From NCBI GenBank assembly GCA_934623575.1, contig CAKTVL010000008.1, positions 1 to 64,000 of the forward strand: a DNA stretch of 64,000 nt, read 5' to 3'. This document shows, in pieces, positions 2,465 through 46,602 of this stretch; position 1 is the first letter of the stretch, and each line of letters starts with the position of its first letter. Made by a program: the position numbers and the translations under genes. Under the pieces are notes generated by a model. The model was given only the letters and a program-made list of their open reading frames with translations. It searched no databases and was not told the origin of the DNA. The stretch comes from an uncultured Oscillospiraceae bacterium. Lineage in GTDB: Bacteria > Bacillota > Clostridia > Oscillospirales > Oscillospiraceae.

Positions 2465-2508
2465 AAAAACCGTGTGCTGACCGTAAAGGTCCGCACACGG
2501 TTTTCTTT
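2464..2508 (+). terminator. intrinsic terminator after the DUF6076 gene
   Basis: AAAACCGTGTGC pairs with GCACACGGTTTT around a 15-base loop, followed by a T-rich run. It sits at the DUF6076 stop codon and merges into the dispersed repeat. Confidence 0.8.
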
Positions 2509-2530
2509 GTCTATAGCGAGGCAGATTTTA
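2503..2530 (+). repeat. dispersed hairpin-associated repeat, copy 1
   Basis: TTCTTTGTCTATAGCGAGGC followed by AGATTTTA is the most diverged of at least six intergenic copies (consensus TTCTTTGTYTAT, optional base, GCGGCGCAG, then roughly TTCTGAG). As at every other copy, a hairpin lies directly upstream. Confidence 0.55.
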
Positions 2531-2555
2531 AACCGCCCCATGTAGGGTCTGAATG

Positions 2556-3416
2556 CTATTTTTCTTTATTTCCCGCATCTTCCAGCAGATTTGTAACCAC
2601 TTCACTGAGCTGCGCGGCGTTCTTGGAAGTGATGACAGGAACGCCGGTCTGCGTCTCAATGGCCTTCCGTGCGTCACCGGCCACCTTGCCACCGGCACGG
2701 GCCACGTCGATGTTCTCCGAAAGGGTTACCGGTGCCTTCTGCTTGGAAATTTCCGTGGTGGTGGCCTCCGCCAGCATATTCAGCACCAACTCCAGCGTGG
2801 TCATGTTGTCACGAAGGTTTTCCTTTTTCAAGCCTTTTAGGTTTTTGTACTGCCGGGTGGACATCCCCGACCATGCACGGGAGATCTCATCGGTGAGGAT
2901 GGCGTATTCCACGCCCTTCTGCACGCCGCGGGCATCCCACTCATCTGTCAGTTCCTTACGGACCTGAATGGCTTGCAGCCGCTGGTTGATCCACTCGCGG
3001 GTGTAGCCTTTCTTGAGGTAGGTTTCCAATGCCCGCTCGATGGTCAGCTCTGGGTCGATGGTTTCCTCGATACGCTCCCGTCCCACCTGTGCCAGCCAGA
3101 GTTTGAACGGCTCCGCCTTGGGTGACGGGATGGACTGGATGATGCGGAGGAGCTGTTCGGTATCGGCCACATCGGTCAGGCGTTTTTTACCATCATGAGC
3201 CGTCATTTTCAAACCGTGACAATTTGTCACGGTTTCATTGCCCTCGGCCTTTAACCGTTGTTTGAGTTTGCGCCAATACGCCGTGGGATCAACGCTGTCC
3301 GTCAGTACGCCAACTACATCGACAATGGAAAAGTACCATTCTTCCTTTTCCTCGTCCCACGCCGTGCGGATACGTTGGTTTTCAAAAGGTTGGGTTTTAT
3401 CGTTTGGACCCGCCAT
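2556..3416 (-). CDS. BRO-N / DinD-like DNA-damage or antirepressor protein
   Basis: The 286-residue product resembles DinD and phage antirepressors with a BRO-N domain. Residues about 10-110 carry the domain: AWDEEKEEWYFSIVDVVGVL, then YWRKLKQRLK and GKKRLTDVADTEQLLRIIQ. The remainder is helical, with LTDEWDARGVQKGVEYAILT, typical of DinD-like proteins. The ATG at 3416 is preferred because AGGAGG lies seven bases upstream. Family knowledge links such proteins to SOS-responsive or phage regulatory roles; its job here is unknown. It faces the same way as the large operon at 3698-11399 but is separated by 281 bases, so co-transcription is uncertain. Confidence 0.7.
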   Translation of the reverse strand: MAGPNDKTQPFENQRIRTAWDEEKEEWYFSIVDVVGVLTDSVDPTAYWRKLKQRLKAEGNETVTNCHGLKMTAHDGKKRLTDVADTEQLLRIIQSIPSPKAEPFKLWLAQVGRERIEETIDPELTIERALETYLKKGYTREWINQRLQAIQVRKELTDEWDARGVQKGVEYAILTDEISRAWSGMSTRQYKNLKGLKKENLRDNMTTLELVLNMLAEATTTEISKQKAPVTLSENIDVARAGGKVAGDARKAIETQTGVPVITSKNAAQLSEVVTNLLEDAGNKEK

Positions 3417-3697
3417 GCTCGGCCTCCTTGCACAAATGCGTGCTCTTCTTTTTCCGCAAGATGAATGTGATAGCAATTTGTCTTGCTGATGCCTATGGTT
3501 GCTCTCGAACAAACGTATTCATTAGAGCATCAAAGGCATTTTTCAACAATACAACCGAGTCTTGCAAGCAAAAGCCAATAGTCGATCTTCGTACATCTTG
3601 CTGACTGATAGCCGCAAATAATACCATAGGCCTCGTTGGCCTTCTTGAGCATTATTCGCCACACAACGGCTATATGATAGCGTTTGTTCTTCTTCCT

Positions 3698-5224
3698 TTA
3701 AGGACTATATGGCTCTCTATTTCCGGAAAAGTCATCAATTAAGGCATCAATAAGGCGATCTGCGTCAGAGCCTAATTGATCGACAATAACACTAAAAACA
3801 TGTTCAAGAATCTTTTTCTCCGTCTTATTAAGTGTTTTGAGTGTATTGATCGCCTTAAATGCCGTTGTACCTTTAAGCGTACCAATAAGCATATCCAGTT
3901 CATCAAAAGCGATTTCTTGATAATATATACCAGATTCATCTGTGACTACCGAATTCGAAACCGCTTTTTGAGCTGAAGATAATTTTTGGGAAATGCGACT
4001 CTTGGCTATAATATCAGTACCATTTTCGATGGCATCGACTGCATCTCGGACAGTTGCTTTGGTCTTTTCGAGTTCCTCAGACAGCTCCCTATTCCTCTTT
4101 AATGATGCTGCTCTTATTTCTCGGGTTATCTCTGCTGCAACTTTTTGCAATTGTTCAATTAATACAAAATAGGCGGGGGTTTTTTCAAAATTATCGCGGC
4201 GAGCATTAGGAATCAGGTAAGCACTTGAAACAAATACTTCACCGATTGACCAGCCATTAAAGCGTGCATCTTTAAATACTGTGTTCAAGGTTTGTCCATC
4301 GCCAATCTGTATATTTCCTTTTCTCAAGCGAAGCCCCTTAATGGTCTTATCATAAATACTTCCGAGATAATTCGTTTTTCCAAGCCAAGCTATCGCTAAC
4401 ACGCTGCCATCATGTTGTTGTATCTTCACAAGTTCAATGTCACTAATAGCATCAAACAAGTTTTTTCCTTTGTCCACCAAAAAACGATCTTTATAAGGTT
4501 TATACAGTGGTGTGGTTGTGTTACCAAAAGAAACCGAAATATTATAAGAATTGACATCCATTCCTTCGGCATATAGACGCCGGACAATCTCTTTCCCCCA
4601 AGCAAAGGAACTTGGGTCATAAGGAACAGGGGCATTTTGTGAAATATATGAAACTACATTTTCATAGTCATTAAGTCCGGAAGTGTCATCCACCCCATCT
4701 AAAATGACTTTAAAATAGTGTGATGCTCTGCTCTCTGAATAGCGCTCAACAAAATATACTCGCCCAAGAACTTCTGTAATCGTAACCTCTCTGTCATCCT
4801 TGGCAGTTAAGAGCTGCGACAGTCTACTTGAGTCAATTATTATTCTGGTACCGATGTTCTCTGATACAGCACTGGTTTCAAATGTCAGTTTTGAGCAATA
4901 TCCCAATGCTGCGAGTCGACCAATACCGCGAAATCCTCTATCCAGTTCAGATGCTTTTTTAGAATTACCAATACTTATTAATGTCTGTTCTGCCTCATCC
5001 GCAGGAATTCCAGTTCCGTTATCTGAAATAACGATACTTCTTTCCGCCGGAGACAAGCGGATAACTATTTCTGCAGCATCTTTTTTTAGTAAATTTTGAC
5101 GAACTGCATTATCAATCGCATCTGCAGCATTTTGGATGTATTCTCGAAAAACGACATATGGATCTGCATACATGCCTGTTGTCAATGACTCAAGTGTGTA
5201 CTTCCCAATTATAATATTGCTCAT
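3698..5224 (-). CDS. GHKL (Hsp90/MORC-like) ATPase, last gene of the candidate defence operon
   Basis: The 508-residue protein has an N-terminal GHKL ATPase: the N box FREYIQNAADAID (E28, N32), the G1 box ISDNGTGIP (D68, G70, G72) and the GFRGIGRLAALG lid motif (97-108). This is the arrangement of Hsp90, MutL and MORC proteins, not of histidine kinases; no dimerisation-phosphoacceptor helix is present. A middle transducer-like region and a helical, probably coiled-coil C-terminus (about 350-500) follow. In MORC and MutL relatives ATP drives dimer clamping on DNA. It begins 1 base after the radical SAM stop codon, so it is the last cistron of a seven-gene operon. Specific role unknown; DNA clamping or sensing is inference. 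Confidence 0.8.
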   Translation of the reverse strand: MSNIIIGKYTLESLTTGMYADPYVVFREYIQNAADAIDNAVRQNLLKKDAAEIVIRLSPAERSIVISDNGTGIPADEAEQTLISIGNSKKASELDRGFRGIGRLAALGYCSKLTFETSAVSENIGTRIIIDSSRLSQLLTAKDDREVTITEVLGRVYFVERYSESRASHYFKVILDGVDDTSGLNDYENVVSYISQNAPVPYDPSSFAWGKEIVRRLYAEGMDVNSYNISVSFGNTTTPLYKPYKDRFLVDKGKNLFDAISDIELVKIQQHDGSVLAIAWLGKTNYLGSIYDKTIKGLRLRKGNIQIGDGQTLNTVFKDARFNGWSIGEVFVSSAYLIPNARRDNFEKTPAYFVLIEQLQKVAAEITREIRAASLKRNRELSEELEKTKATVRDAVDAIENGTDIIAKSRISQKLSSAQKAVSNSVVTDESGIYYQEIAFDELDMLIGTLKGTTAFKAINTLKTLNKTEKKILEHVFSVIVDQLGSDADRLIDALIDDFSGNREPYSP

Positions 5225-5225
5225 G

Positions 5226-7265
5226 TTACCCCTCCAGGAATTGCGAGAACTTTATCTGAATGTTTTTAAAAATCGCTTCAGATGTACTGTTTAGCAATTT
5301 TTGGCCAAGTTCTTGATCGTTCATGGCCACAATTTTCTGCTTAAAAACCGCAAAGTTCTGTTCGAGCAAAGTTGCAAGGTTCAGCATATCCATTTCGCTA
5401 ATGGCCTTTTGAGCAATGTGATGGTCACATGCATTAAAAGCACCTACATCGACAAAACGGCGATATATTCTTATAAGCTCAAAATCAACATATCCGATAC
5501 CACTCTTTCTGCAAATGGTATACCACTTTTGAAATTGTTCATCTGCATCATAGTCACTGCTACTCAATTTGTTTAATATATCGCGCACTCCTGTCCGGCC
5601 AAAAAATGAAACAAAATTCTTAAATGGGCTCTGAAGAGTGCTGTCACAGACAAACTCAACAACATCTTTGTAGATGTCGGGAAATTCAACTGTTATATAT
5701 TTTTTCAGCAAAGAGAATGTGGGTGATGCCAGTTCAATCATCCCCATAAGAGCAACAACGCGAGGCGTGGTTAAATATAGGAGATATAGTTTTTTATGGA
5801 GATCTGAAGATATGCCTAACAACTTTTCAGGCAAAAACTCGTTATCACTGATCAATGAAACAAACGAATCAACATTCCCCTCGAGCTGATCATACAGCCG
5901 ATTCCACTCTTTAATCCTGCGCTGGTTTCTATCCCAAGCACTCTTGCGGATAGCGAGTTCTTCTTTTGTTTCAGTTGTTCGCCCTCTACCACCTTCACTA
6001 AAGTGACCTCGAGCAGCGATCAATTTGTCCGGCATGCATAGATAGCGAACAAATTCATCTGCATCTTTGCCAAAATCCGCTTCAAAGAACGACCTGCTTC
6101 CAACCCCTTTGCCCTGTGTAGGAATGAGCATGCATTGTACTGCTCTTAAAAACTTTGCATTCCATTTTGAGCCAACATAGCCACGCTCATGCGCGGACAA
6201 GGGAATATACCGCATAGGGAAAGAAAATGCGCTTATTCTTGATCCCTCTGGCAACTCCTTGTTCAGTTTGTCCTTCAAATCGAGGGTAATTCTCATCCTG
6301 TTATACAAGTCTGCAGGCGTATCTGCAGCATACTGATGACCTTTACCGCCAAAGTCTTCGCTATTGTAAAGAACATAGTTAGAAAGTTCAGTTATTCCGT
6401 ATTTTGCACACAGTCTTAATGCCCGCTCATAGGTCTCGCGATCTTCAATATGATCAAATGCAATTCTGGCCGGCCGCAGCGCAATTTCACCTAAGCGTCG
6501 TGCCTTTGCCTCGGTTAAAAACATTGCATCAAGACCCTGGTTAAAGTCAACATATCGGCGAACAGTCTTTCCGGTCTTAGGGTTCACATAGGTAGCGCCC
6601 TTGCCAAACCCAGCCGCGATAATATCGTCAATGATCTGATTGAATTTGGGAGACCGTAAAACATTATTATCCATCAGGAGTAGATCCTTTTTCGGACCAT
6701 ACTTTGCATCGATTTTTTTGATTTTTTCCTTTATATCTATGTACGGAATAAATGTGGGCTCCAACGTCTGGACAGCACAAAATCCACACTTGTTTCCGCA
6801 GCCCTTCGTTGCACTGAGGAAGTAAGCGTCTCTAAACGGATATTTGTAGTCAGTCTCATCCAGGATTGAATAATCCGGAACAATCTGATCGATGCATTCA
6901 TCTCCAGGCAAGTTTAATTTACCAGGCTCGTTTAACAGGCCACGAACCGGATTGATTCCTGTCTCTTCGAAGATCTGTTCAGGCAACATTGTCGCAGCAA
7001 TACCGCCTACTGTGATTTGGTCAATCGAATCAACAAGTGTTTTTGCATATTCAATGGCCTCAATTGTAGCAGCCCATTCAAAAGTAAAGAGGGATGTCAC
7101 ATATACATGATCCCATTTGGTATTCGCAAACGCGGGAGGCAACTTACCTTTCGTAAACCGGACATAATCATGCATCTTTTCTCTATGAAATGATGCAATT
7201 TTCATGAGGCCAAGCGGCGGATATTTGTTCTTGTACTTGGGCTCTATTAGCAATATCTTTCTCAT
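5226..7265 (-). CDS. radical SAM protein, large, with B12-binding-like N-terminal region
   Basis: The 679-residue protein carries the radical SAM cluster motif KGCGNKCGFCAVQ with C156, C160 and C163 (CX3CX2C). The first 130 residues (starting KILLIEPKYKNKYPPLGLMK and including TVGGIAATMLPEQIF) resemble the Rossmann-like B12-binding domain of COG1032-type enzymes, but the DxHxxG cobalamin signature is not seen. A 300-residue C-terminal extension is unassigned. Radical SAM enzymes cleave S-adenosylmethionine to start difficult C-H chemistry on small molecules, RNA or peptides; the substrate here is unknown. Lying in an operon with SNF2, ParB-like, nuclease and GHKL genes, a nucleic-acid or nucleotide substrate is plausible but unproven. 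It starts 24 bases after the upstream ParB-like gene. Confidence 0.85.
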   Translation of the reverse strand: MRKILLIEPKYKNKYPPLGLMKIASFHREKMHDYVRFTKGKLPPAFANTKWDHVYVTSLFTFEWAATIEAIEYAKTLVDSIDQITVGGIAATMLPEQIFEETGINPVRGLLNEPGKLNLPGDECIDQIVPDYSILDETDYKYPFRDAYFLSATKGCGNKCGFCAVQTLEPTFIPYIDIKEKIKKIDAKYGPKKDLLLMDNNVLRSPKFNQIIDDIIAAGFGKGATYVNPKTGKTVRRYVDFNQGLDAMFLTEAKARRLGEIALRPARIAFDHIEDRETYERALRLCAKYGITELSNYVLYNSEDFGGKGHQYAADTPADLYNRMRITLDLKDKLNKELPEGSRISAFSFPMRYIPLSAHERGYVGSKWNAKFLRAVQCMLIPTQGKGVGSRSFFEADFGKDADEFVRYLCMPDKLIAARGHFSEGGRGRTTETKEELAIRKSAWDRNQRRIKEWNRLYDQLEGNVDSFVSLISDNEFLPEKLLGISSDLHKKLYLLYLTTPRVVALMGMIELASPTFSLLKKYITVEFPDIYKDVVEFVCDSTLQSPFKNFVSFFGRTGVRDILNKLSSSDYDADEQFQKWYTICRKSGIGYVDFELIRIYRRFVDVGAFNACDHHIAQKAISEMDMLNLATLLEQNFAVFKQKIVAMNDQELGQKLLNSTSEAIFKNIQIKFSQFLEG

Positions 7266-7289
7266 ATCAGTTATACCCTTCGTGGGGAT

Positions 7290-8282
7290 TTATTTTCCCA
7301 TGTCTTGAATGAGCTTATTAACAGTCTTTTGGATTTTCTTCAACTCAAAACCAACAGATTTATTCGTGGTAGCTTCCAGCAACAATGCTTTCTGGAAATC
7401 GTCATCGTCAATCAAGTCATGAAACTTCTTTATCCGCTGATATCCATTGCTTGCTTTTCCAGTCGCCTTAAATTTTTCATGCCCGTCATAAATGGACGTA
7501 TTGCCCTGGATGATATCCTGCATAATTTTGGTGGCTGTTTTGTCTTTAGCCTTCGCGATCTCGCCCAGAACTGTTCGCACATCCATAGCTTGTTTGATCT
7601 GCTCTGTTTTGACCTGCGCCACGAAGGTATCATCCATTTGGGGATGAGTCTCACGGTATTTATTAATTCCTCTATTTTTTAAGTACTCCTCGTAGTAACT
7701 CCAGCGATCCGGGCGCAAATCATCGTGCTCCAGCATGAAAGAGTATACTTTTAAGTACGCCAGCACTTTACTTTCTGTTAGGCCAACGTTTTTAGCAAGA
7801 ATATCTGTGGCAATACCTGTTGACTCCTTCTGCCGATACAGATAGGCGGCTTGTTCAAAGACGCTCCAATCCTTGCGACCAACCAAATGATACTGACCTA
7901 AAAGGGTAAAAATATCCCCATCCGTAATCTCTTCTGGCAAAATACATGCTCGGACTTTTTGCCATTTAACAGGATCTTTGGCAGCCAATAACCTATAAGC
8001 CGCCAAACGGCTGTTCCCTTCAAGAACAATGTACTCATCATTGCGTTTTACAACCATTAACGGATCAATTAAGCCGCCATTCTGTTCAATGGACAGACGG
8101 AGCTGCTTGACATGATCCATCGAAGTCATTTTTTCTTCGATGATCTCCTGGGTAGGGGTCGATCCATCAGCACGAAGAGCAGAATAAACACGAGGATTCT
8201 CTTCATAGAACAGCAACTCACACTGGTTTAACTGAACCTCACTAACCTCGTATTCTTTCTTCCCAATGGTTATCTTACTCAT
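7290..8282 (-). CDS. ParB/Srx-fold protein (second copy)
   Basis: A 330-residue protein with an N-terminal ParB/sulfiredoxin-like nuclease-fold domain: LRLSIEQNGGLIDPLMVVKR, then IVLEGNSRLAAYRLLA (EGNSR at 88-92, the nucleotide-binding signature of ParB-type CTPases and Srx). A helical middle with possible HTH (ILAKNVGLTESKVLAYLKVY) and a C-terminal helical region follow. The ATG at 8282 is preferred because AGGAGG lies just upstream; it overlaps the SNF2 stop by 8 bases. It has the same length and layout as the ParB-like protein at 10175-11167, so they are likely paralogues with split roles. Related ParB folds occur in DNA-modification islands (for example DpdB), which supports but does not prove such a role. 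Confidence 0.8.
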   Translation of the reverse strand: MSKITIGKKEYEVSEVQLNQCELLFYEENPRVYSALRADGSTPTQEIIEEKMTSMDHVKQLRLSIEQNGGLIDPLMVVKRNDEYIVLEGNSRLAAYRLLAAKDPVKWQKVRACILPEEITDGDIFTLLGQYHLVGRKDWSVFEQAAYLYRQKESTGIATDILAKNVGLTESKVLAYLKVYSFMLEHDDLRPDRWSYYEEYLKNRGINKYRETHPQMDDTFVAQVKTEQIKQAMDVRTVLGEIAKAKDKTATKIMQDIIQGNTSIYDGHEKFKATGKASNGYQRIKKFHDLIDDDDFQKALLLEATTNKSVGFELKKIQKTVNKLIQDMGK

Positions 8283-9765
8283 AATCAAACTCCTCCTGTT
8301 CGGGGAACAGTATTGCATTAATTAAATCACCGAAGCTATAATCAGCAATTTTCCTATATTTGCTAAGCGAGATATCTCCTTGAGCCAAAAATGCTGCATT
8401 TTGTTTTGCTTTCAGCAGAATATCAACCCATTCATCTATGCTGTCATTCACAATTATGTTGTGAACATAGCATGTCTTCTTCTGGGAAATTCGATGGATT
8501 CTATCTTGCGCTTGCAGATAATCATCGAGGCTAAATCCTCTATCATAAAAAATTACATGGTTTGCCATTGTCAAAGTTAGCCCTTCTTTAGCTGAAGCAG
8601 GTGTAGCAAACAAAATGCGGTAATCATCTGTGTAAAAACGCTCCACAGAACGATTTCGATCTGCCATATTCATCCCGCCATGTATCTTTACACTGCCAAG
8701 CTCAGAATACTTTTTACAGAAATCGTTGACATTTTCGATAAAATTTGACCAAACAATACATTTTTCGCCATTTGTAAGGATCTCTTGAATAAGACGATCT
8801 AAGACAGCTTCTTTCGCAGATTCTCCAGAAAATGAATCGTCAACCAGTCGCGGGTTTGATGTGACCTGCACAAGCCGCAAAAGTCGCTTTACGATAGCAG
8901 ACGAATCGTCCTCAACAAGTTCACCGTCTTTTACAACTTCAATCTTTAATTCCTCACGAACTCTATCGTACAAAGTTTTCTGTTCCGGGGCAAAGTCTAC
9001 AGTTTCTCTAATATACACTTTGTCCGGCAACTCAACAACTCCACTATTCTTGGTTTCGCGCACGGAGAAGTCCTTTATTCTGGCATGAATGCCAGAGACA
9101 ACACCTTCAAAATTGCTCTGCGAGCCTTCGTCGCGAGATAGTTTATTTGACAGGTCTGTTTCCTTTCGGAATGAATTGAAATCTGTGCCAAGACTCTTTC
9201 CTTGATCTAAAAAGAAGATTTGTGCCCAAATGTCATATGGGCGGTTTGCGACAGGAGTCCCCGTCATGATAACACGCTTTTTGAAGTGCGGTGATAATTC
9301 AAAGAATGCTTTTGTAAGTTTAGCGTTCGGATTTTTTAGTTTTGCGGATTCGTCAATGATAATAGCGACATTCCGAGTTTCTAAAAATAACTTAACCTGT
9401 TCAATCTCCGATACAAGAACCTCAAAGTTTGTAACTACAACGCGTGCAGGGCCAGTAAAGACATAAAAGTTACCTTGTTTGTTCGTATCCAAAACAGCCG
9501 GCTTAATAGCCGTATGATTCTTAAATTCTCTGATCCAATTCTGAACAAGTTGTTTTTTTGTAACAACCAGAACCGTATCTATAGAGGTTTCGGTTAGCCA
9601 ATACAGCAGAAGATCGATTGCGATTTTTGTTTTGCCAAGGCCTTGCTCATGAAAAATTGCAGCATACTCTAAATCCTTAATTGCTTCAAATGCCTCTTTT
9701 TGGTACTGGAAGGCATCGTATTTCGCAATGAAACTCGGTTCTTTTATTAGATGGATTCGCTTCAT
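8275..9765 (-). CDS. SNF2-family DEAD-like helicase/translocase
   Basis: The 496-residue protein is a compact SNF2/Rad54-type dsDNA translocase. Motif I is HEQGLGKTKIAI (residues 39-50), motif II DESA (138-141), motif III MTGTPVANRPYDIWAQ (167 onward). The second RecA lobe has KIHGGMNMADRNRSVERF, FATPASAKEGLTLTMA and motif VI QAQDRIHRISQ near residue 430. No nuclease or methyltransferase domain is attached. SNF2 proteins move along duplex DNA to displace or reposition proteins; they recur in DISARM, Dpd and other anti-phage islands. It overlaps the nuclease gene upstream by 4 bases and the ParB-like gene downstream by 8, so all three are co-translated. Confidence 0.9.
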   Translation of the reverse strand: MKRIHLIKEPSFIAKYDAFQYQKEAFEAIKDLEYAAIFHEQGLGKTKIAIDLLLYWLTETSIDTVLVVTKKQLVQNWIREFKNHTAIKPAVLDTNKQGNFYVFTGPARVVVTNFEVLVSEIEQVKLFLETRNVAIIIDESAKLKNPNAKLTKAFFELSPHFKKRVIMTGTPVANRPYDIWAQIFFLDQGKSLGTDFNSFRKETDLSNKLSRDEGSQSNFEGVVSGIHARIKDFSVRETKNSGVVELPDKVYIRETVDFAPEQKTLYDRVREELKIEVVKDGELVEDDSSAIVKRLLRLVQVTSNPRLVDDSFSGESAKEAVLDRLIQEILTNGEKCIVWSNFIENVNDFCKKYSELGSVKIHGGMNMADRNRSVERFYTDDYRILFATPASAKEGLTLTMANHVIFYDRGFSLDDYLQAQDRIHRISQKKTCYVHNIIVNDSIDEWVDILLKAKQNAAFLAQGDISLSKYRKIADYSFGDLINAILFPEQEEFDYE

Positions 9766-10169
9766 ATTGCTCCTCCAATCCCGTCGATGATCCGTACCTC
9801 ATATATTCCTGGATACTTCTGTTGAAGATTTCTAAGAATATTATGAATGGTGGCGTGCTCTGTCCACGGAACCGCAGCTAAAAACATAGCCTTTCCTCGG
9901 AAGAGAGAGCACTTTTTAAGGTACGATTCATACTGCAATTTACTATGTACACGGGCGACATCATCACTGGTTTTCGCCTCGCCGATAATCAAACTATGCT
10001 GATATTGATAATACACATCAGGGCGATATCCCTCTTCCATAAGAGGAGAAAGTGCGTAGCCGTCTGCTGCATCTGACATGATAAAACACCTATTTGTTTC
10101 GCCAACTATACTGACGACTTCGTCGATTATTAAATTGACCAGTTGCAAATGCTGCGCAGACTCGCCCAT
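9762..10169 (-). CDS. small PD-(D/E)XK nuclease-like protein
   Basis: A 135-residue single-domain protein. The sequence GYRPDVYYQYQHSLIIGEAK gives the classic PD-(D/E)XK core (D51, then E64-x-K66), followed by a helix with HSKLQYESYL containing the conserved Q79. This fold occurs in restriction endonucleases and Holliday-junction resolvases. There is no DNA-recognition domain, so specificity would come from partners; the SNF2 gene overlaps it by 4 bases, suggesting a nuclease-translocase pair comparable with split type III-like systems. Active-site residues look intact. Family call from motif only. Confidence 0.7.
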   Translation of the reverse strand: MGESAQHLQLVNLIIDEVVSIVGETNRCFIMSDAADGYALSPLMEEGYRPDVYYQYQHSLIIGEAKTSDDVARVHSKLQYESYLKKCSLFRGKAMFLAAVPWTEHATIHNILRNLQQKYPGIYEVRIIDGIGGAI

Positions 10170-10174
10170 AGTGA

Positions 10175-11167
10175 TTACTCTCCCTTAACTTCACCCAGCA
10201 CAAAGTTCAATTCTTCAAATACGCGCTCTAAACTCTCTAATTTTTCTGAATACTCAGAATCATCGCGAAGATGTTCAACTTCTCTCAATTCAATTTTCGC
10301 CATTCGCTTGGTCAGTTCCTGTGCAAGCAGTTCATAGGGAACATCTTTCAATTTGTCCGTTGTAATCTCTTCAACAGCCAGTATTTTTTTAGCTTCTCTA
10401 CTGTTTTCTTTCAAGAAAACTTCCAAAGCATTTTTGCTTTTCAGGATCTCCGGTAGACGTCTAACATCTTGCAAAACAGAAAACCGGTCATCGATCATCC
10501 ATTGAGAAAAATCAGTTTTGCTAAAGCCACGCATTGTAAGAGCATCGATAACATTCTTTCGCTGTAGCTCTACAAAACCATGGAAATTCCGATGGTCGAA
10601 CTGCGTATCGTCGTCACACAATGGCCGGTAATAGGTTTCCATGTCGTTGTATGCAGCAATCATATTTCGAATCTCAGATGCTTTTGAGGTGCCACCGCAA
10701 AAGGAAATTAACGTCGCCATTGGCATATGCTCAACATTTGCGAGATGATGTAAATATAATGCCTTGGAATACGGATCCCACTCTCTTGGGCCAATAAGAT
10801 GTGCCTGCAAACGAATCGCATGCATACGATCATCGTCTAAATCTTCGTAAACGATCGCACGAATCTTTGTCCAGTCACCAGGAACTCCATTTTTTATAAA
10901 GTCTTTATAAATTTGCAGTCTCGTGTTTCCCTCAACTACCACATAGCTCCCATCCACACGCCTGTTTACAACGATAGGATGAATGATTCCACCATTCTCC
11001 CTAATGGACTCTCGAAGACTGGCGCACGCTTCGGATGTCGATCCCAGTAGTAGTGCCATTGTTTCACTTGTGATATTCTCGCCATAGTACGCAACGCCAC
11101 GAGCAATGCGAGGGTTGCTCTTATCCAGTTCAATTGTTTCAACGGGAAGTTCAATATAATTATTCAT
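10175..11167 (-). CDS. ParB/Srx-fold protein (first copy)
   Basis: The 330-residue protein has the same order as the second ParB-like gene: LRESIRENGGIIHPIVVNRR, then YVVVEGNTRLQIYKDF (EGNTR at 79-83), then a helical region with an HTH-like stretch and a charged coiled-coil-like C-terminus (IELREVEHLRDDSEYSEKLE). ATGs at 11170 and 11167 are adjacent to GAGGGCG; the start overlaps the XRE regulator by 8 bases. It is the first effector gene of the operon. ParB-family members can bind and hydrolyse CTP and slide on DNA, or act as nucleases; which applies here cannot be read from sequence. Confidence 0.8.
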   Translation of the reverse strand: MNNYIELPVETIELDKSNPRIARGVAYYGENITSETMALLLGSTSEACASLRESIRENGGIIHPIVVNRRVDGSYVVVEGNTRLQIYKDFIKNGVPGDWTKIRAIVYEDLDDDRMHAIRLQAHLIGPREWDPYSKALYLHHLANVEHMPMATLISFCGGTSKASEIRNMIAAYNDMETYYRPLCDDDTQFDHRNFHGFVELQRKNVIDALTMRGFSKTDFSQWMIDDRFSVLQDVRRLPEILKSKNALEVFLKENSREAKKILAVEEITTDKLKDVPYELLAQELTKRMAKIELREVEHLRDDSEYSEKLESLERVFEELNFVLGEVKGE

Positions 11168-11399
11168 CATCGCCCTCATGTCCCTTCGTGTTGTTTTCGT
11201 CCGGCACGATCTCCATAATATCCTCAACCCTACAATCCAGTGCCGCACAAATCTTCATGAGTATCTCTGTGGTAACATGTCCGTTCCGCCCCATTTTGGT
11301 GACGGATGCAGGGCTGATACCTGCCTTTTCACACAGGTCTTTTTTCTTCATGTCCTTATCGATAAGCAACTTCCAGAGTTTTTTATAACTCACAGACAT
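11160..11399 (-). CDS. XRE/Cro-type regulator heading the candidate defence operon
   Basis: A 79-residue Cro/CI helix-turn-helix protein: YKKLWKLLIDKDMKKKDLCE, then AGISPASVTKMGRNGHVTTE (recognition helix) and LMKICAALDCRVEDIMEIV. GGAGGAG lies eight bases before the ATG. It is the first gene of the seven-gene operon and overlaps the next gene, so it probably sets operon expression. Close relatives head the AlbA_2/type I cluster (30218-30433) and, as a relic, the DUF3427 helicase cluster (49801-50079). Confidence 0.9.
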   Translation of the reverse strand: MSVSYKKLWKLLIDKDMKKKDLCEKAGISPASVTKMGRNGHVTTEILMKICAALDCRVEDIMEIVPDENNTKGHEGDDE

Positions 11400-12250: not shown

Positions 12251-12319
12251 CTTTCCCTTAAAACGCAGTTCGGATTAAGGGAAAGTCCCTATTCTTTGTC
12301 TATAGCGATGCAAATTCTG
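12251..12319 (+). repeat. dispersed hairpin-associated repeat, copy 2
   Basis: An 11-bp perfect hairpin (CTTTCCCTTAA 12251-12261 with its complement 12275-12285) is followed by TTCTTTGTCTATAGCGATGC then AAATTCTG at 12292-12319. Same arrangement as the other copies. Confidence 0.6.
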
Positions 12320-12425
12320 CGCCGCCTATCCCTACATAAAGAACTTGCTTAACCTCTCCAGCAGAGGTACAATGCGACAGACTGGAGAGGCAAATCATCC
12401 GTCCGCAGCGCTCCGACAAACTATG

Positions 12426-12860: not shown

Positions 12861-12889
12861 TTGAATTTTTCGGCGTTATGCACTATAAT
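12861..12889 (+). promoter_or_regulatory. promoter of the Lamassu-like operon
   Basis: TTGAAT (12861-12866), 17-base spacer, TATAAT (12884-12889). A potential ATG at 12878 lies inside the spacer and therefore cannot be the translation start of a transcript from this promoter. Confidence 0.75.
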
Positions 12890-12922
12890 ATTTCTACGGT
12901 AGGCCTTTGCGCCGCCAAGGTA

Positions 12923-12949
12923 GCCGTACGGAATACCGTGCGGCTTTTA
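12923..12949 (+). terminator. attenuator-like hairpin in the Lamassu-like leader
   Basis: GCCGTACGG and CCGTGCGGC pair (one G-U) over a 4-base loop, followed by TTTTAT. It lies between the promoter and the likely ribosome site (AAAGGGGGAAAG, 12958-12969), so it could limit expression of a toxic defence operon. Confidence 0.5.
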
Positions 12950-14014
12950 TCATATACCAAAGGGGGAAAGCATCTTGGGGTAGTTGATGTCTATACCAAA
13001 ATCCCATATGACCTTTCAGGCTCAATAAGTAAAAATAGATTTCGCCAAGAGCTCTGCTGGGGCATAAGCAAAATGTTTGACCTCTTTGATAAAGAGGATT
13101 TTTGCGTTGTTTTTGATTATAAGTGTGATATTGAGATTCATTTCAATGATTCCATTGAATTCTATCAGATTAAAACACACAAAATTCAATCGCCTTACAA
13201 GTTTTCTAATCTTAAAAGGCACAAAGATGGTCCAAGTATAATCGCAAAGCTTTTTGTTCTAAAAGACACCTCCTCCCCTGATGTCCCGATCCGATGTGCG
13301 CTTGTGTCAAACGCCTTTCTCCAGATTGGAAAGGTCGCAATATCCGATAAGGAGTCCTTTTCATTTGAAGAACTGGACGAAAAAAGTCAATCGGCTGTAA
13401 AGGCTGCCCTTACCGAGGAACTTGTTCGAGAAAATGTAGATCTTTCGAACTTATATTACATTTACACACCAATGAATCTTTTTGCCCCGCAAAACGATAT
13501 CATTGGAAAGATAACCGGAAGCTTTGAAAGAATCAAGGGCTGTGAACCGGTGAAGCCCAATGCACTATACCGTCTGATTGTTGATACTGTTACTGAAAAG
13601 GCGTGTTATGAACTTAGCTCTCAAGATTACTCTGAACTAATCAGGTGCAAGGGTATTACAAAAGCTGAATTGAATACTATGCTGGATCATCATATGGAGA
13701 AAACTGACAATTCAGTTTCTCTTGTCCAAGATTACATTGAACGGAAGCAAGTAACCATTGGCGAAAAACGAAAACTGAAGCAGTCTTTGGCCAAAATTGT
13801 TGAAGCTGAATGTAAATCACTCGAACTGCAAACGAAGCAACAAACTTTGTTCGAGTATATGGATACCATTTCAACTGATGTATCCTTTGAAGAGATGGCT
13901 GAAACGCTTTTGTCTCGTTACTCTACCACATTCCCGATAGAGTACAGTCAAACGGACAGGTATATATTTATATTATTAGTCATTAAGAGGTGGGAGTGTG
14001 GTCTAAATGAGTAA
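12938..14014 (+). CDS. DUF4297 (Cap4-type) dsDNA nuclease, LmuA-like
   Basis: The protein (up to 358 residues) matches the DUF4297/Cap4 endonuclease family: IPYDLSGSISKNRFRQELCW at the N-terminus, then the PD-(D/E)XK-like core FDYKCDIEIHFNDSIEFYQI followed by KTHK. This domain is the nuclease of Lamassu LmuA and of CBASS Cap4. The C-terminal half is helical and unassigned. It overlaps the SMC-like gene by 8 bases. The start is unresolved: the only in-frame starts are the promoter-embedded ATG (12878) and a GTG (12938) in the hairpin, while the ATG after the best ribosome site (12987) is one frame off and would read MSIPK into IPYDLSG if the A run at 12998-13001 had one more base. So a frameshift is possible. 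Confidence 0.75.
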   Translation: MRLLSYTKGGKHLGVVDVYTKIPYDLSGSISKNRFRQELCWGISKMFDLFDKEDFCVVFDYKCDIEIHFNDSIEFYQIKTHKIQSPYKFSNLKRHKDGPSIIAKLFVLKDTSSPDVPIRCALVSNAFLQIGKVAISDKESFSFEELDEKSQSAVKAALTEELVRENVDLSNLYYIYTPMNLFAPQNDIIGKITGSFERIKGCEPVKPNALYRLIVDTVTEKACYELSSQDYSELIRCKGITKAELNTMLDHHMEKTDNSVSLVQDYIERKQVTIGEKRKLKQSLAKIVEAECKSLELQTKQQTLFEYMDTISTDVSFEEMAETLLSRYSTTFPIEYSQTDRYIFILLVIKRWECGLNE

Positions 14015-15704
14015 GTTGATTTTTAAGGATTTATATTTGTTTTCACCTTCCGAAAAATTAGCAAAGAAGATTTCATTTGCCCCTGGCCGCACAATGATTA
14101 CTTCGGATGCACATGACGGAACTGATCGCGGCAAATCAGTTATTATGAAGGCCCTATATCATACAATGGGCGCTGATTGTTATTTCGAAGGGAAATGGGA
14201 TGATTCAAGCAAAACGTATATTCTTCGCTTCTGCGTAGATGATGACGAATATTATATATTCCGGCACAACAAGCTGTTTAAGGTATTTGATGGTGAAAAA
14301 AATCTTCTGTTTTCTGTAATCTCACGACACGAATTATCAGAGCGTCTATCAAGCATTACTGGTTTCGCCGTTAAGTTACCGCCCAGAGAACGAAATTCGG
14401 ACGATGGCTACATACAAGAATTAGAAATCGCTTCTGCAGTTTACAACTACCTTCTTTATTTTGTGGATCAAGACTATCAAAATGGCTCACAGTTTGCGTC
14501 CTTCCAGCATCTCGGTGAATATCTCGATTACAAAGAAAATGTTTTGTACTACCACTTTGGTGCTTTTGACGATGATTATTATATGTTAGTACAGGAGCAG
14601 GACATCTTGTTAGCAGAGGGTAGACGGTTAGAGAACGAACACAAGATGACATGCATGATGCTCGATAAAATTTACGCAAACATTCATTCTGTTTCTTACT
14701 CTAAGGATATCAAACATTTAAGAGCCGATGTCAACCGCACAAGGGATGAGTATAACAAGCTGTCCAATGCTTTGAATCAGCTTCGTCAAAAGCTAATTCG
14801 CCTACGTAATGAGAAGGCAGATCTGGAATATCATCTGCATGCTCTAACACTGTTCGGCAAAGAAAATGATCTCCAAATTGCCTCGCTCAACAATCATGTC
14901 TGTCCATTTTGCAAGTCAGAAATAAATGATGCAATAGATTTAAGAATCAAAAAGTACAGCACCGGTGATGATATCATTCTACTTAGCAGCGATATGCAGT
15001 ATAGTATTATGGAGATTGACCGGAAAATTTCCGAATATGAGGCTGAGTATTCACAATGGCTTTCTAAATTGAGAAAATATGAAGAATCAATCAATATTGC
15101 ATCGACAGAAATCAACGACATCCTAAAGCACGAGGGCTTTATTGATATCAAGGAATCTGTTGCTGAAGACTTGGACACTATTCGCAACAGCATATCGGAA
15201 AATGAAAAGAAGCTTAGGGAGGTGAAAAAATCACTTCGCAAATATGGTGAAATCAAGAAAAAAATAAATGAGCGATACTACGCCTTGATGCTGTCTGATA
15301 AGAATCGTTTTGGCCTTGAAGGAATCAATGCAAAAAGCTTTGAAAATATAAAGCGAACTTTTTCTGCTGGAGGCAGCAACAATCCGCTTTCAACAATTAT
15401 TTGGTATGTTAATCTAATTCAGCTTAAGCATGAATTTAATCCTTCGGCAATAGATTTTCCTGTTGTTTTCGATAGTCCCAACAATGCGGAGACTGATGAA
15501 ACGAAAAAACGCCAAATATACAGTTATATTTGTGAGCGTATAACTGAAAACCAGCTTATTGTTTCAGGTCTTGGGTTTTCAGGAGACGAAATTTTGGATT
15601 CCTTTGATTCTATTATTACCCTCACCAACAACAAGTACGAATTACTTTGTCAGAAAGACTATGATGCTAATGTTTCTTTGTTACGAGAATTGAACAATAA
15701 GTAA
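14007..15704 (+). CDS. SMC/RecN-like coiled-coil ATPase, LmuB-like
   Basis: The 565-residue protein is built like a small SMC/Rad50 ATPase. A divergent P-loop is at HDGTDRGKSVIMKAL (residues 36-50, GKS intact but the first glycine shifted). Coiled coils flank a zinc-hook-like CPFC at 299-302. The C-terminal lobe has FSAGGSNNPLSTIIWYVNL (signature-like) and Walker B FPVVFDSPNN (484-493), followed by LIVSGLGF. Paired with a DUF4297 nuclease this is the layout of Lamassu (LmuA-LmuB), where the SMC-like protein senses foreign DNA and licenses the nuclease. No LmuC-like gene is present; the next gene is the integrase on the opposite strand. Confidence 0.8.
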   Translation: MSKLIFKDLYLFSPSEKLAKKISFAPGRTMITSDAHDGTDRGKSVIMKALYHTMGADCYFEGKWDDSSKTYILRFCVDDDEYYIFRHNKLFKVFDGEKNLLFSVISRHELSERLSSITGFAVKLPPRERNSDDGYIQELEIASAVYNYLLYFVDQDYQNGSQFASFQHLGEYLDYKENVLYYHFGAFDDDYYMLVQEQDILLAEGRRLENEHKMTCMMLDKIYANIHSVSYSKDIKHLRADVNRTRDEYNKLSNALNQLRQKLIRLRNEKADLEYHLHALTLFGKENDLQIASLNNHVCPFCKSEINDAIDLRIKKYSTGDDIILLSSDMQYSIMEIDRKISEYEAEYSQWLSKLRKYEESINIASTEINDILKHEGFIDIKESVAEDLDTIRNSISENEKKLREVKKSLRKYGEIKKKINERYYALMLSDKNRFGLEGINAKSFENIKRTFSAGGSNNPLSTIIWYVNLIQLKHEFNPSAIDFPVVFDSPNNAETDETKKRQIYSYICERITENQLIVSGLGFSGDEILDSFDSIITLTNNKYELLCQKDYDANVSLLRELNNK

Positions 15705-15748: not shown

Positions 15749-16978
15749 TTATCCTACTTTTTCAAACGGAATCACCTTGCACCGGCTCTGCTCCGGCGGG
15801 TCGGGAGGCTCCGGAGTAGGCGTTGCCGTGGCCGATTCCATAAAGCCGCCGATTTTCTCAGCCGCACCTCTCTGCATATCGTTGGTGATGTGCGTGTAGG
15901 TGTCCAGCGTGAAGCCCGCGCTGAAGTGGCCCAACATACTGGACAGGGTTTTCACATCCACGCCGCTGGAGATTGCCATCGTTGCGAATGTGTGTCTGAG
16001 GTCATGGAAGCGCACATGCTCCTCGATGCCCGCGTTTTTCAGCAGTTTCCGGTTGATCCTTGACACGGCATCCGGACTCCAGTAGCCGCCCGTCCGGGGC
16101 GACGGGAACAGGATTGGATTGTCCGGGTGCTGCTCATGCTCCTGCACCAGCAGGTCCACTGCCTGCTGAGACAGCGCCACCTTGCGGACGGAGTTTTTTG
16201 TTTTCGGCTCCGTCACATCCAACTCGCCCTCCATGCGGGTGACCTGCTTATTCACCGTCAGGATGCGCTCTTTTACATTCAAGTCCTCCCACTGGAGTGC
16301 CAGCAATTCGCCCCGGCGCAGGCCGCTGGACAACTCCAGATAGAACATAGGCAGGACGCCGTATTTCTCCGCTTCCTGGAGGTATCTGCCGATCTTCTCC
16401 GGTGGGAGGATGGTCATCTCTTTCTTGTCCTTGGGCGGGATGCGGCAGTTCTCGCAGGGGTTGTACGGGATGAGCCGCTCTTTCACCGCCTGCTTCAGCG
16501 CCGCCTGCAGCACCGCATGGACACGCCGCACGAAGGTGTTGGACAGGGGCTTGTCGTTCTGCTTCGACCCACGCTGCATCCTGCCGTTTTCTTTCAGGTC
16601 GTTATACATTCTCTGGATGTGGATGGACGAGAGCTGCTTAAGCTTGATCGCGCCGATGGCCGGGATGATGTGGTGCTCGATGATCCCCTCATAGCCTTTA
16701 GCGGTGTTGTAGCGGATGTTGGGCTTGCTGTAAGTTTCAAACCACAGGCGGCACCACTCCGCTGCGGTGTAGTCGCCCATGTGATTGAGCGGCACGCCTC
16801 GATTCTCCCGAATGGCTTTCGCCAGCTTTTCTTTGCATTCCGCCTGGGTCTTGGCAGACACACTTTTCTGGATGGCCCGGCCGGTGACCGGGTCGATGCC
16901 CTGGGTATATCTGCCCTCCCAGCGGCCGCTGGGCTTTTTGCGGATACTGCCCTCTCCGTTGGCTCGTTTCTTTGCCAT
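15749..16978 (-). CDS. int: tyrosine integrase of the second element
   Basis: The 409-residue enzyme has the full phage-integrase layout: an arm-binding AP2-like N-terminus (GEGSIRKKPSGRWEGRYTQG), a core-binding SAM-like domain (about 75-180), and a catalytic domain with R in SGLRRGELLALQW, HDLRHTFAT, LGHFSAGFTLDTYTH (H and the nucleophilic Y). GGAGGGATC precedes the ATG. It sits next to the excisionase and 3.1 kb from the tRNA-Pro half, with the defence pair in between, so it most likely catalysed insertion into tRNA-Pro. Confidence 0.95.
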   Translation of the reverse strand: MAKKRANGEGSIRKKPSGRWEGRYTQGIDPVTGRAIQKSVSAKTQAECKEKLAKAIRENRGVPLNHMGDYTAAEWCRLWFETYSKPNIRYNTAKGYEGIIEHHIIPAIGAIKLKQLSSIHIQRMYNDLKENGRMQRGSKQNDKPLSNTFVRRVHAVLQAALKQAVKERLIPYNPCENCRIPPKDKKEMTILPPEKIGRYLQEAEKYGVLPMFYLELSSGLRRGELLALQWEDLNVKERILTVNKQVTRMEGELDVTEPKTKNSVRKVALSQQAVDLLVQEHEQHPDNPILFPSPRTGGYWSPDAVSRINRKLLKNAGIEEHVRFHDLRHTFATMAISSGVDVKTLSSMLGHFSAGFTLDTYTHITNDMQRGAAEKIGGFMESATATPTPEPPDPPEQSRCKVIPFEKVG

Positions 16979-17033
16979 TTATGATCCCTCCTTTTTAACA
17001 CAAACACATACCACAGAGTTTTTGGAATAGCTA

Positions 17034-17252
17034 CTAAAATATTTCAGATTTTTTCGCGGCCTGTTCGTCGATCCATTCCATGAATTTATCACGTGGGACG
17101 ATGATGCGGCTGCCCAGAGTAATGGTGGGGAAATCCCTGCGGTGGGCTACCTCGTAGGCATGAGCCAAGCCGATGCCCAGCACATGGGACACATCCTCCA
17201 CGGTCAGCATCAGCGGGAGTTCATCAAACGAATTGTATTTGGATTTTCTCAT
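17034..17252 (-). CDS. xis: excisionase-like HTH protein
   Basis: A 72-residue MerR/excisionase-type protein: LMLTVEDVSHVLGIGLAHAY, then FPTITLGSRIIVPRDKFMEW. It is homologous to the protein at 779-988 and lies 55 bases upstream of the integrase in the same direction, the usual xis-int order. AAGGAAC precedes the ATG. Probable role: directionality factor for excision. Confidence 0.85.
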   Translation of the reverse strand: MRKSKYNSFDELPLMLTVEDVSHVLGIGLAHAYEVAHRRDFPTITLGSRIIVPRDKFMEWIDEQAAKKSEIF

Positions 17253-17266
17253 TCAGTTCCTTTCTG

Positions 17267-17320
17267 CCTTCCGGGCGGAAGGGTTTTATTCTTTGTTTTG
17301 CGGCGCAGTTTCTGCGCCGC
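17267..17320 (+). repeat. dispersed hairpin-associated repeat, copy 3, with a second perfect hairpin
   Basis: CCTTCC-GGGC-GGAAGG (17267-17282) is followed by TTCTTTGTTTTGCGGCGCAG and TTTCTGCGCCGC. Here the conserved part itself folds: GCGGCGCAG (17300-17308) pairs perfectly with CTGCGCCGC (17312-17320). It occupies the gap between relaxase stop and excisionase start. Confidence 0.6.
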
Positions 17321-19261
17321 TTACATGGTCATGTCAGGCCACTGCTCCTCATGGTCATCCTGCTTGTGGCCCAGGGCGATGCGCTTTTCTTGAAGCTTCT
17401 TCAGCCGCTTCCGGTCGATCTGGATACCGCCGGGTCGGGACTTGGGTACGGAGTTGTCCCGGAAGATCCGGCTCATGTGATGGAGCAGCCGGGTCACTGC
17501 CAACATCGCAGAGGGCGGACGGTTTTCCTCCAAATGGTTCAGAAGGTACTGTGCATACTGATTGCCTTGCTCGGCGGATTGGGTCAGCCAATATGCGGCT
17601 TTCTCCTCGTCGCGGGGAATCTCCTTACCAGCAAGGTACAGCTTGCCCAGCATATACTGGGCGTAGGGGTTTCCCCGCTCGGCTGACCGAGTGAACCACT
17701 CCACGGCGGCATCACTATTTCGTTTGATTAAATCACCTTTGAACAGTTCTTTAGCCAGCCGATACATGGCGTAGTGGCTGCCGTTGGCCGCAGCGGTGTA
17801 GAGCCAGTTCATTCCCTTCCGGGTATCCCACACTTCCAAATCATCCGAGAAGTACAGTTTGGCAAGAGAGTACTGTGCCACCAGATGTCCCTGCTCCGCC
17901 GCCTGTTCGAACCAGTACCGGGCATTCGCCGAGTCCGGGATCAGCAAAGGTCCGTCCCGCCAGAGTTTTCCCATCAAGCACTGGGCGTACATATCGCCGC
18001 GCTCCGCCAGCCTTTCCATTTCAGAGACGGCTTCGCCGCGCTCCTCCATGGTCAGGCTCTCGTCCCGGATCACATCCCGGAGCGCCCCGTAGTCGTAGGA
18101 GGCGTTGCGGTATTCCTCCGGCTCGTCCTGCTGATTGAGATTCTTCTCCTCGAAGGTGAACTCACCCAGGCGCAGACGCTCCGCTTCACGGATAACTGCA
18201 TTTTTGATCTGTGTGAACTCTTTCTGCTTTGAGAGAGGAACACGCTCCCGGGACTTGTCGTGGTAGTAGCTGTCCACCTTGCCCTGAAGCATCAGCCATT
18301 GGTCATAACACCCGCTCACGCCGGGGAGCCGCTCCATCTCATCAACAATTTCATCCACCAGTTTCTTCAGCCGTTTGGGGAGGTAGCCATAGGATTTCTT
18401 TCCCTTGACTGTTTCAAGCTGCGCCGCCAGCTCCAGCATGAGCCGCTCAGCGTCCGGGTGGTCGCACATGCTATCCTGCATGGTCTGCACCAGTTCCAGT
18501 ATTGCCCGCCGCGCCTCCCGCACCAACTCATCTCTGGACTCAGACTTCTGTTCGTAGAGATGGAGCATTTCGTTGCGGAAGATATCGTTGGTGAGCTTGG
18601 ACTTGATCTGACGGATGCCCTCTTTGGACAAGTAAGCCTGTCCCGGCTTTGCGGACCAGGCCATCATGTGGATGTGCGGGTGCTCGCCCTCGTCGTGGAA
18701 GGCCGCATACCAGCGGAAGTCACCGGGCGGTATCTTCATTGCCACCGCGATGTCGTTGCGGTGCGCCCGAATGAGATTGCGCCACGCCGCGGCGTTATCG
18801 AAGCCGAGCCGGACCGCATCCTCACGCTTGAGGGAGATGATGTGCGTCCACACGTTTCCGGTGTAGTTCTCCAGTTCTTCCATGGCCTTGCCCAGAGAGA
18901 CCGTTTCCTCATCACCGAACAGACCGTGGGTACCGATGCGCTCGGCGCGTGGCCGGGTGGCAATGTACTTCATGTACTGTTCCGACTCGTGGATGGCATC
19001 CCAGTTGGTCTCCAGCGCCAGCGTGATGAACGCAGAGGCGCTGACCTTAGTGGGCTTCGTCAGGTAGTCCTCGTACTCATAGAGCGTTTTGCTGTCCGGG
19101 AAGTCCTTGACCAATTTAGCGGCGAGCTGTTCCTGCTTTCGTGTGGGCGGACGGTCATCCGGGATAAGCTCCACCCGCTCCCGGGTCGCGATGTAGCGAA
19201 GGTATCCGGAGGCCCCGCCGGTGCTTTTGATATAGGGACTCTTGAGGATCAGTCTTGCCAT
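17321..19261 (-). CDS. MobP-type relaxase with C-terminal Sel1 repeats
   Basis: The 646-residue protein starts with a relaxase domain (about 1-230) whose metal site is FHDEGEHPHIHMMAWS. Relaxases nick oriT and pilot the strand in conjugation. Residues about 410-590 contain at least four Sel1-like repeats (for example ARYWFEQAAEQGHLVAQYSL and AVEWFTRSAERGNPYAQYML), a protein-interaction solenoid. Accordingly the element is mobilisable, but no type IV secretion genes are in the window, so it must borrow a transfer apparatus. It overlaps the relaxosome gene by 13 bases. Call is firm for the relaxase; the MobP3 subfamily is my best match. Confidence 0.9.
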   Translation of the reverse strand: MARLILKSPYIKSTGGASGYLRYIATRERVELIPDDRPPTRKQEQLAAKLVKDFPDSKTLYEYEDYLTKPTKVSASAFITLALETNWDAIHESEQYMKYIATRPRAERIGTHGLFGDEETVSLGKAMEELENYTGNVWTHIISLKREDAVRLGFDNAAAWRNLIRAHRNDIAVAMKIPPGDFRWYAAFHDEGEHPHIHMMAWSAKPGQAYLSKEGIRQIKSKLTNDIFRNEMLHLYEQKSESRDELVREARRAILELVQTMQDSMCDHPDAERLMLELAAQLETVKGKKSYGYLPKRLKKLVDEIVDEMERLPGVSGCYDQWLMLQGKVDSYYHDKSRERVPLSKQKEFTQIKNAVIREAERLRLGEFTFEEKNLNQQDEPEEYRNASYDYGALRDVIRDESLTMEERGEAVSEMERLAERGDMYAQCLMGKLWRDGPLLIPDSANARYWFEQAAEQGHLVAQYSLAKLYFSDDLEVWDTRKGMNWLYTAAANGSHYAMYRLAKELFKGDLIKRNSDAAVEWFTRSAERGNPYAQYMLGKLYLAGKEIPRDEEKAAYWLTQSAEQGNQYAQYLLNHLEENRPPSAMLAVTRLLHHMSRIFRDNSVPKSRPGGIQIDRKRLKKLQEKRIALGHKQDDHEEQWPDMTM

Positions 19262-25311: not shown

Positions 25312-25313
25312 AC

Positions 25314-28675: not shown

Positions 28676-28767
28676 ATTTCCTCGTTCCCTTCCTCGCTGT
28701 AATAAGGCACCAATGATCATATCCTGAATGGTATCTTACTAAAGTTTCTACCCGTTATTCTGGACTA

Positions 28768-35275: not shown

Positions 35276-35344
35276 GCCCCTCTGAAATCGTTGATTTCAG
35301 AGGGCTTTTTCTTATTCTTTGTCTATTGCGGCGCAGAATCTGAG
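35276..35344 (+). repeat. dispersed hairpin-associated repeat, copy 6
   Basis: A 13-bp hairpin with one bulge (35276-35306; GATTTCAGAGGGC right arm) and a T tract form a terminator; then TTCTTTGTCTATTGCGGCGC and AGAATCTGAG (35315-35344). It directly follows the tRNA half. Confidence 0.65.
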
Positions 35345-46572: not shown

Positions 46573-46602
46573 AGGTGTCTCCCAAAAATCATGCAAAGTA
46601 CG

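Follow-up and report, generated by a model that had tools for sequence, protein, structure and literature searches.

The 64,000-nucleotide window analysed here (positions 1 to 64,000 of contig CAKTVL010000008.1, from an uncultured Oscillospiraceae bacterium) contains an operon of seven minus-strand genes, running from 11399 to 3698, which encode in order an XRE regulator, a ParB-like protein, a PD-(D/E)XK-like nuclease, a SNF2 translocase, a second ParB-like protein, a radical SAM protein (RSAM) and a GHKL ATPase. These genes belong to a conserved set made up of two blocs, each of them co-inherited, and the RSAM–GHKL pair behaves as a cassette that has been repeatedly re-paired with different partner engines, because protein identities agree within the blocs but hardly between them, and because the partner engine changes many times across the RSAM tree. 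With moderate confidence we propose that the operon is a mobile restriction-like system directed against invaders and composed of two modules, in which RSAM would mark the host DNA and the other arm would cut.

The initial annotation of this region described seven genes on one strand, separated by 1-24 bases or overlapping by 4-11, and the coordinates agree. The first gene (11160..11399) encodes a helix–turn–helix protein of the XRE/Cro type with 79 residues (Pfam HTH_26, 3.6e-21), which is likely an autoregulator and has kin upstream of the first ParB-like gene in two further loci (L012 and L025). This ParB/Srx-like protein, ParB1 (~331 residues, ~10175..11170), was defined from its open reading frame (ORF), the alignment of its relatives and an EGNTR motif, with the longest ORF starting at 11248 and the relatives favouring the start MMNNYIEL (~11170). 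It is followed by a stand-alone PD-(D/E)XK nuclease-like protein of 135 residues (9762..10169), recognised by its conserved motif and with no match in Pfam, and then by the SNF2 family translocase of 496 residues (8275..9765; Pfam SNF2 1.2e-30, PADLOC and motifs). The second ParB/Srx-like protein, ParB2 (~330 residues, ~7290..8282), was placed by ORF and profile scans, and the two ParB-like proteins score 22.7 and 14.2 bits against Pfam ParB_N, under the cut-off of 26.3. RSAM (5226..7265) combines, by model and motif, an N-terminal cobalamin-domain-like Rossmann fold and a radical SAM core (residues 1-409) with a helical C-terminal part, and the last gene (3698..5224) encodes a GHKL ATPase of the HSP90/MutL/MORC-like kind with 508 residues (Pfam HATPase_c_3 2.1e-11, and motifs).

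The motifs that had been called intact from the single sequence proved to be conserved in aligned relatives: CxxxCxxC in 79/79 for RSAM, GNTR in 19/19 for ParB1, the PD...(D/E)xK motif (PD...ExK-type) in 18/18 for the small nuclease-like protein, GKT and QxQDRIHR in 18/18 for SNF2, and E-[YF]-x-Q-N in 25/25 and DxGxG in 24/25 for the GHKL ATPase. None of the seven proteins has a full-length PADLOC match to a known system, and none matches a methylase in Pfam or PADLOC, which is consistent with the lack of a methyltransferase noted at the outset. Scans of the window with Rfam (at the gathering threshold) and for tRNAs returned nothing, and the promoter and terminator scan gave counts close to the shuffled mean.

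The order of the operon exceeds chance, recurring in unrelated phyla. Of 7998 candidates from a protein search with RSAM, 5113 reached E <= 0.001 (the best 92% identical), not all of which need be family members. By tblastn it was met in 15 of 72,556 plasmid records and in 10 of the 50,697 phage records, in each case with less than 80% of the query covered, and a plasmid search at the DNA level gave three records with a query coverage of at most 4%. Scans with an RSAM alignment confirmed 432 relatives on genome contigs, of which the best 80 were analysed, and 446 on viral contigs, of which 80 were analysed; the 80 genome loci include many metagenome bins and many contigs that stop inside the locus. 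The order from ParB1 through nuclease, SNF2, ParB2 and RSAM to GHKL is found in Clostridia (L011, L012), Erysipelotrichaceae (L025), Pelosinus (L039) and Parcubacteria (L085), and likewise on viral contigs (L001, L092-L094), so that the co-occurrence for which the initial annotation had proposed a neighbourhood search holds on plasmids, on viral contigs and in several phyla. On plasmids of Rhizobium and Mesorhizobium (L004, L006, L183) the window order is extended by a DndB-family gene before RSAM. The earlier statement that no Dnd gene is present is therefore true of the operon itself, but not of these alphaproteobacterial copies, and other frameworks described below use a Pbe/CxC engine. Copies from Nitrospirota (L059) and Brocadia (L070) have the arm (ParB1 to ParB2) and RSAM and give no GHKL match. 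In three loci (L008, L096, L099) the arm and the RSAM–GHKL half lie on opposite strands, which hints at two modules, and in L021 the two halves stand in reversed order.

The association was also examined from the opposite side. In 7/7 plasmid records the distance between ParB1 of this arm and RSAM is at most 6 kb, and ParB1 neighbours an RSAM gene in 8/8 viral contigs and in 3/3 carriers out of 391 genomes searched, two of these three having been known beforehand. The viral relatives of ParB1 were found by an alignment-based scan, whereas a scan of viral contigs with the single sequence returned no relative. In a rough control, drawn from viral contigs rather than matched genomes, 66/67 further loci whose radical SAM genes are more distant contain no partner arm, and the exception (L107) scores as a member of the RSAM family. 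Two other operons with the same arm (L178, 8631-13886; L181, 6227-11994) carry a strongly diverged RSAM (24-25% identity over the aligned part) and no GHKL match. Radical SAM genes that stand alone in phages might conceivably counteract systems of this sort.

Grouping the 80 genome loci by the engine that accompanies RSAM places 62 in five frameworks, leaving 18 with none, where framework and GHKL calls are hidden Markov model matches anywhere within the locus. Framework A is the ParB/nuclease/SNF2 arm of the window (16 loci, of which L063 and L074 were counted with no SNF2 match above threshold); framework B is DrmA-DrmB with a NERD-UvrD helicase (24 loci); framework C has a DndB-like protein only (8 loci); framework D has an ABC ATPase of the CxC/PbeC-like kind, accompanied in most loci by a PbeA-like helicase and by a small DndE-like ORF (11 loci, L067 being included solely on such an anywhere-in-locus match); and framework E has NurA-like and HerA-like proteins (3 loci). 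The partners in B and D were identified through PADLOC matches of one representative each (DrmA 2.8e-161, DrmB 1e-52; PbeC 8.4e-164, PbeA 1.3e-218) and the partner in C through Pfam DndB on two proteins. The small ORF of framework D (u2), which has no Pfam or PADLOC match, we take to be DndE-like from its position and by assumption. For framework E, u5 and u6 have no Pfam match and u6 weakly matches PADLOC HerA (8.8e-4), and we call these two NurA-like and HerA-like, respectively, by assumption. A GHKL gene was detected in 52 of the 80 loci and is missing from 6/16 A, 3/24 B and 9/11 D loci.

A simple pattern scan of ORFs of at least 200 residues found methylase motifs in 0/11 D, 4/24 B and 2/16 A loci. 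The neighbour scans covered complete, not yet assigned ORFs of at least 150 residues: among 50 other neighbour proteins of D loci, five PADLOC families matched at 1e-10 and none was named methylase, DndC or DndA, while PADLOC mad2 matched 4/87 B and 2/88 A neighbours. Since the type I methylase of the window matches mad2 as well, mad2 probably denotes a methylase, and as the best 25 of 156 and the best 25 of 70 neighbour families were considered for B and A, further methylases are possible beyond those. Several associations were seen besides the five frameworks. A D12-class adenine methyltransferase lies upstream of a solo RSAM in L073 (4759-5643), and a DPPY ORF of similar size is upstream of RSAM in L071. 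In many framework B operons the gene immediately preceding DrmA encodes a protein of ~336-549 residues that weakly resembles bactofilin (L015, 1961-3040, and kin). In alphaproteobacteria, a PIN_8-domain protein (tested on L003) and a second GHKL ATPase adjoin RSAM–GHKL (L003, 4126-7634; L076, 13386-16843), and this pair is possibly another arm.

The initial annotation had the seven genes acting as one unit, and as far as descent is concerned this idea was rejected on both the tree and the identity correlations, which instead indicate two re-paired modules. Spearman correlations of pairwise identities were taken over the 20 non-identical A loci in which the five large genes are all present. Within SNF2, ParB1 and ParB2 they reach 0.80-0.90 and between RSAM and GHKL 0.82, values attained by 0/500 permutations. 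Between the blocs they fall to 0.01-0.22, the strongest being RSAM with ParB2, and 17-219 of 500 permutations are as high. RSAM and GHKL remain correlated when frameworks are combined (0.87 across 42 loci, 22 A and 20 B), as they do over the 440 cross-framework pairs (0.76). Single comparisons agree with this: the RSAM of the window is 72% identical to those of a DrmAB locus (L010) and an A locus (L012) and 50-51% identical to its counterpart in A locus L025, despite the SNF2 of L025 being 74% identical to the window SNF2.

Mapped onto a quick maximum-likelihood tree built from 77 RSAM rows, the frameworks imply no fewer than 18 changes (4 being the lowest possible number), and for framework A alone 13 changes are forced by branches with good support. 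The framework labels still cluster, as shuffling them gives a mean of 40.9 changes, and the rows nearest to the window by path are A loci (L011, L012) and then B loci. The tree omitted identical proteins and the 18 genome and 2 viral loci that have no framework, and in it the window row was trimmed to 430 residues with the others at full length, and several branches are long.

The Pfam Radical_SAM score of RSAM, 22.4 bits, is under the gathering cut-off of 29.5, and the predicted model (pLDDT, the predicted local distance difference test, 93.5) matches the radical SAM core fold. In structure comparison, residues 1-409 match cobalamin-domain and methylthiotransferase enzymes, and RSAM aligns from residue 1-2 with AprD4, MgmA, TsrM and OxsB across the cobalamin-domain-like N-terminal part, the Pfam B12-binding match being under cut-off. 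By fold we assign RSAM to the cobalamin-domain class; it may bind and use cobalamin, and AprD4, one of the aligned enzymes, is not known to bind it. A search of PDB sequences with the RSAM profile gave nothing at 0.001; the best match (0.015) was a magnesium transporter, through the helical C-terminal part, and MgmA (9ccb) came at 0.076. Identity as a methylthiotransferase was rejected, because enzymes such as MiaB and RimO have three further conserved cysteines for a second Fe-S cluster and these are absent: only Cys 155, 159 and 162 of RSAM are invariant, the next best column reaching 39/79. A viperin-like reading was likewise set aside as the leading idea on the fold matches.

We infer a role in defence with DNA as the substrate. 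Module 1 (ParB1, the PD-(D/E)XK-like protein, SNF2 and ParB2) would form a DNA-scanning and cutting arm, in which SNF2 would act as the translocase, the ParB-like proteins as binders of DNA and/or nucleotides, and the small nuclease as the cutting enzyme. Module 2 (RSAM and GHKL) would take the place held by the DNA modification enzyme in DISARM, Pbe/Dnd-type and MORC restriction–modification (R-M) loci, with RSAM perhaps putting a carbon-centred mark, such as a methyl group, on host DNA and the GHKL ATPase, where present, acting on the DNA or the complex as a loader or remodeller; invader DNA lacking the mark would then be cut. RSAM is assigned to the marking slot because frameworks B and D belong to systems in which a DNA modification gene is usual, and the simplest reading would be that it fills this slot while the engine scans and cuts. 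The earlier proposal of a restriction arm with a radical SAM-dependent mark or nucleotide product survives in its first half as the most economical reading, and the nucleotide product is weakened by the fold. More tentatively, and with confidence that falls a little short of the balance, the portable RSAM–GHKL pair may be a DNA-marking module based on radical chemistry, exchanged many times among at least five DNA-scanning or cutting engines (ParB-SNF2-nuclease, DISARM DrmAB, DndB-like, CxC-DndE/Pbe and HerA-NurA-like).

An effector role accounts for the module swapping equally well. RSAM–GHKL could be a sensor/effector cassette that modifies or destroys invader nucleic acid, tRNA or protein once the arm engages foreign DNA; we consider this unlikely but the most serious of the competing ideas, as in the D and B frameworks RSAM occupies the place of the modification genes of related systems and the second-cluster cysteines that a methylthiotransferase needs are absent from it. 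Maintenance of the element, with the ParB-like, SNF2 and GHKL proteins serving segregation, addiction or conjugation and RSAM as an accessory, would fit the two ParB-like genes, the relatives on plasmids and viral contigs and the operon's proximity to an integrase and a MobL relaxase. It appears improbable to us, given that Pfam finds no ParA-like gene among the seven, that homologous cassettes elsewhere accompany DrmA-DrmB and Pbe genes, and that several defence systems lie in the window. Antiviral radical SAM enzymes exist, and viperin is among the Foldseek matches of RSAM, from which one might suppose that RSAM makes a modified nucleotide poisoning invader polymerases beside a separate nuclease system formed by the remaining genes; this we regard as very improbable.

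The surroundings of the operon bear on its mobility. It is flanked by attachment (att)-like direct repeats on the plus strand, a 35-nucleotide left copy (2503..2537) and a right copy (12292..12326; 83% over 35 nucleotides, the first 17 identical), with a chance expectation of 0.00 for a pattern chosen after the repeat was seen. A repeat search located a third, weaker copy at 35315-35335, beyond the Lamassu and MobL genes, and the three copies suggest tandem element accretion. Between the first two repeats lie the operon and a gene for a BRO-N/DinD-like protein (2556-3512; PADLOC candidate PDC-S13, 3.6e-139). No integrase is present among the genes checked there, and a tyrosine integrase and MobL relaxase are found nearby (15749-19261); therefore the repeat-bounded unit may be cis-mobilised cargo. 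Next to these mobility genes is the Lamassu pair reported in the initial annotation, recovered by PADLOC as LmuA (4e-116) and LmuB (7e-189) at 12878-15704. The window also contains type I R-M genes (R, S and M; 21740-28720) and, adjoining an Mko-like helicase, a methyl-directed enzyme of the type IV-like kind (46603-49758; 43864-49758 with the helicase), which together with Lamassu make it a defence island.

The seven-gene set is conserved and carries no name in the libraries searched, as the initial annotation had supposed, and the RSAM family is apparently large and unnamed. None of the open papers returned by the literature searches, most of them judged from the search results themselves, was seen to describe an RSAM–GHKL defence cassette in its main text. 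In the accessible parts of three related papers, 'radical SAM' is used twice in PMC10853773, both times for DndC; by term count GHKL and ParB are absent from PMC12458937, where no radical SAM passage was met; and radical SAM and GHKL are absent by term count from PMC11090510. If our proposal is true, radical SAM enzymes would represent a new class of chemistry in bacterial DNA marking, restriction-like systems would have a marking half and a cutting half that evolve separately as exchangeable cassettes, and a defence superfamily would be defined by its marking chemistry and not by its cutting engine. To our knowledge, there is no earlier case of a self-mark made by radical chemistry in a restriction-type system.

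Comparison with known systems shows partial likeness to several. The N-terminal parts of the two ParB-like proteins match the PADLOC candidates PDC-M38A (1.6e-10 and 6.8e-10) and PD-Lambda-5_A (2.1e-9 and 8.6e-9), but no other component of either candidate was matched. The ATPase part of SNF2 resembles DpdE (2.5e-42) and ZorD (1.4e-46), yet no other Dpd or Zorya component, including the ZorA/ZorB motor, is among the matches listed for the seven proteins (for SNF2, the best 25 of 32). Dpd systems have a DpdA enzyme, similar to tRNA-guanine transglycosylase, and preQ0 genes, and neither was found among the seven proteins scanned. DISARM (DrmA, DrmB, DrmC, DrmM) includes a methylase; the window operon has no methylase match and no DrmA or DrmB, and among the matches listed only SNF2 is similar to a DISARM protein, DrmD. 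The framework B relatives, in contrast, have the same RSAM family after DrmA and DrmB, with GHKL in 21/24 loci, and differ from DISARM in combining RSAM–GHKL with a NERD-UvrD helicase and in having no methylase-motif ORF inside the operon. GHKL ATPases with superfamily 2 (SF2) helicases and nucleases have been proposed as R-M systems (PMC2292703), and the window operon also joins a GHKL ATPase, a SNF2-type SF2 helicase and a nuclease. In the accessible part of that paper the MORC/paraMORC operons have DNA methylases and ParB is unmentioned by term count, whereas the window operon lacks a methylase and includes RSAM and two ParB-like proteins. In the accessible part of PMC10853773, systems of a CxC ABC ATPase with DndE are associated either with phosphorothioation or with cytosine methylases. 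The window operon has no DndC, DndD/PbeC or DndE match; in framework D, where neither phosphorothioation genes nor a cytosine methylase occur among the 50 neighbours scanned, RSAM instead stands in the place of the modification genes, preceded as in PbeABCD by a PbeC-like ATPase and mostly also by a PbeA-like helicase and the small DndE-like ORF.

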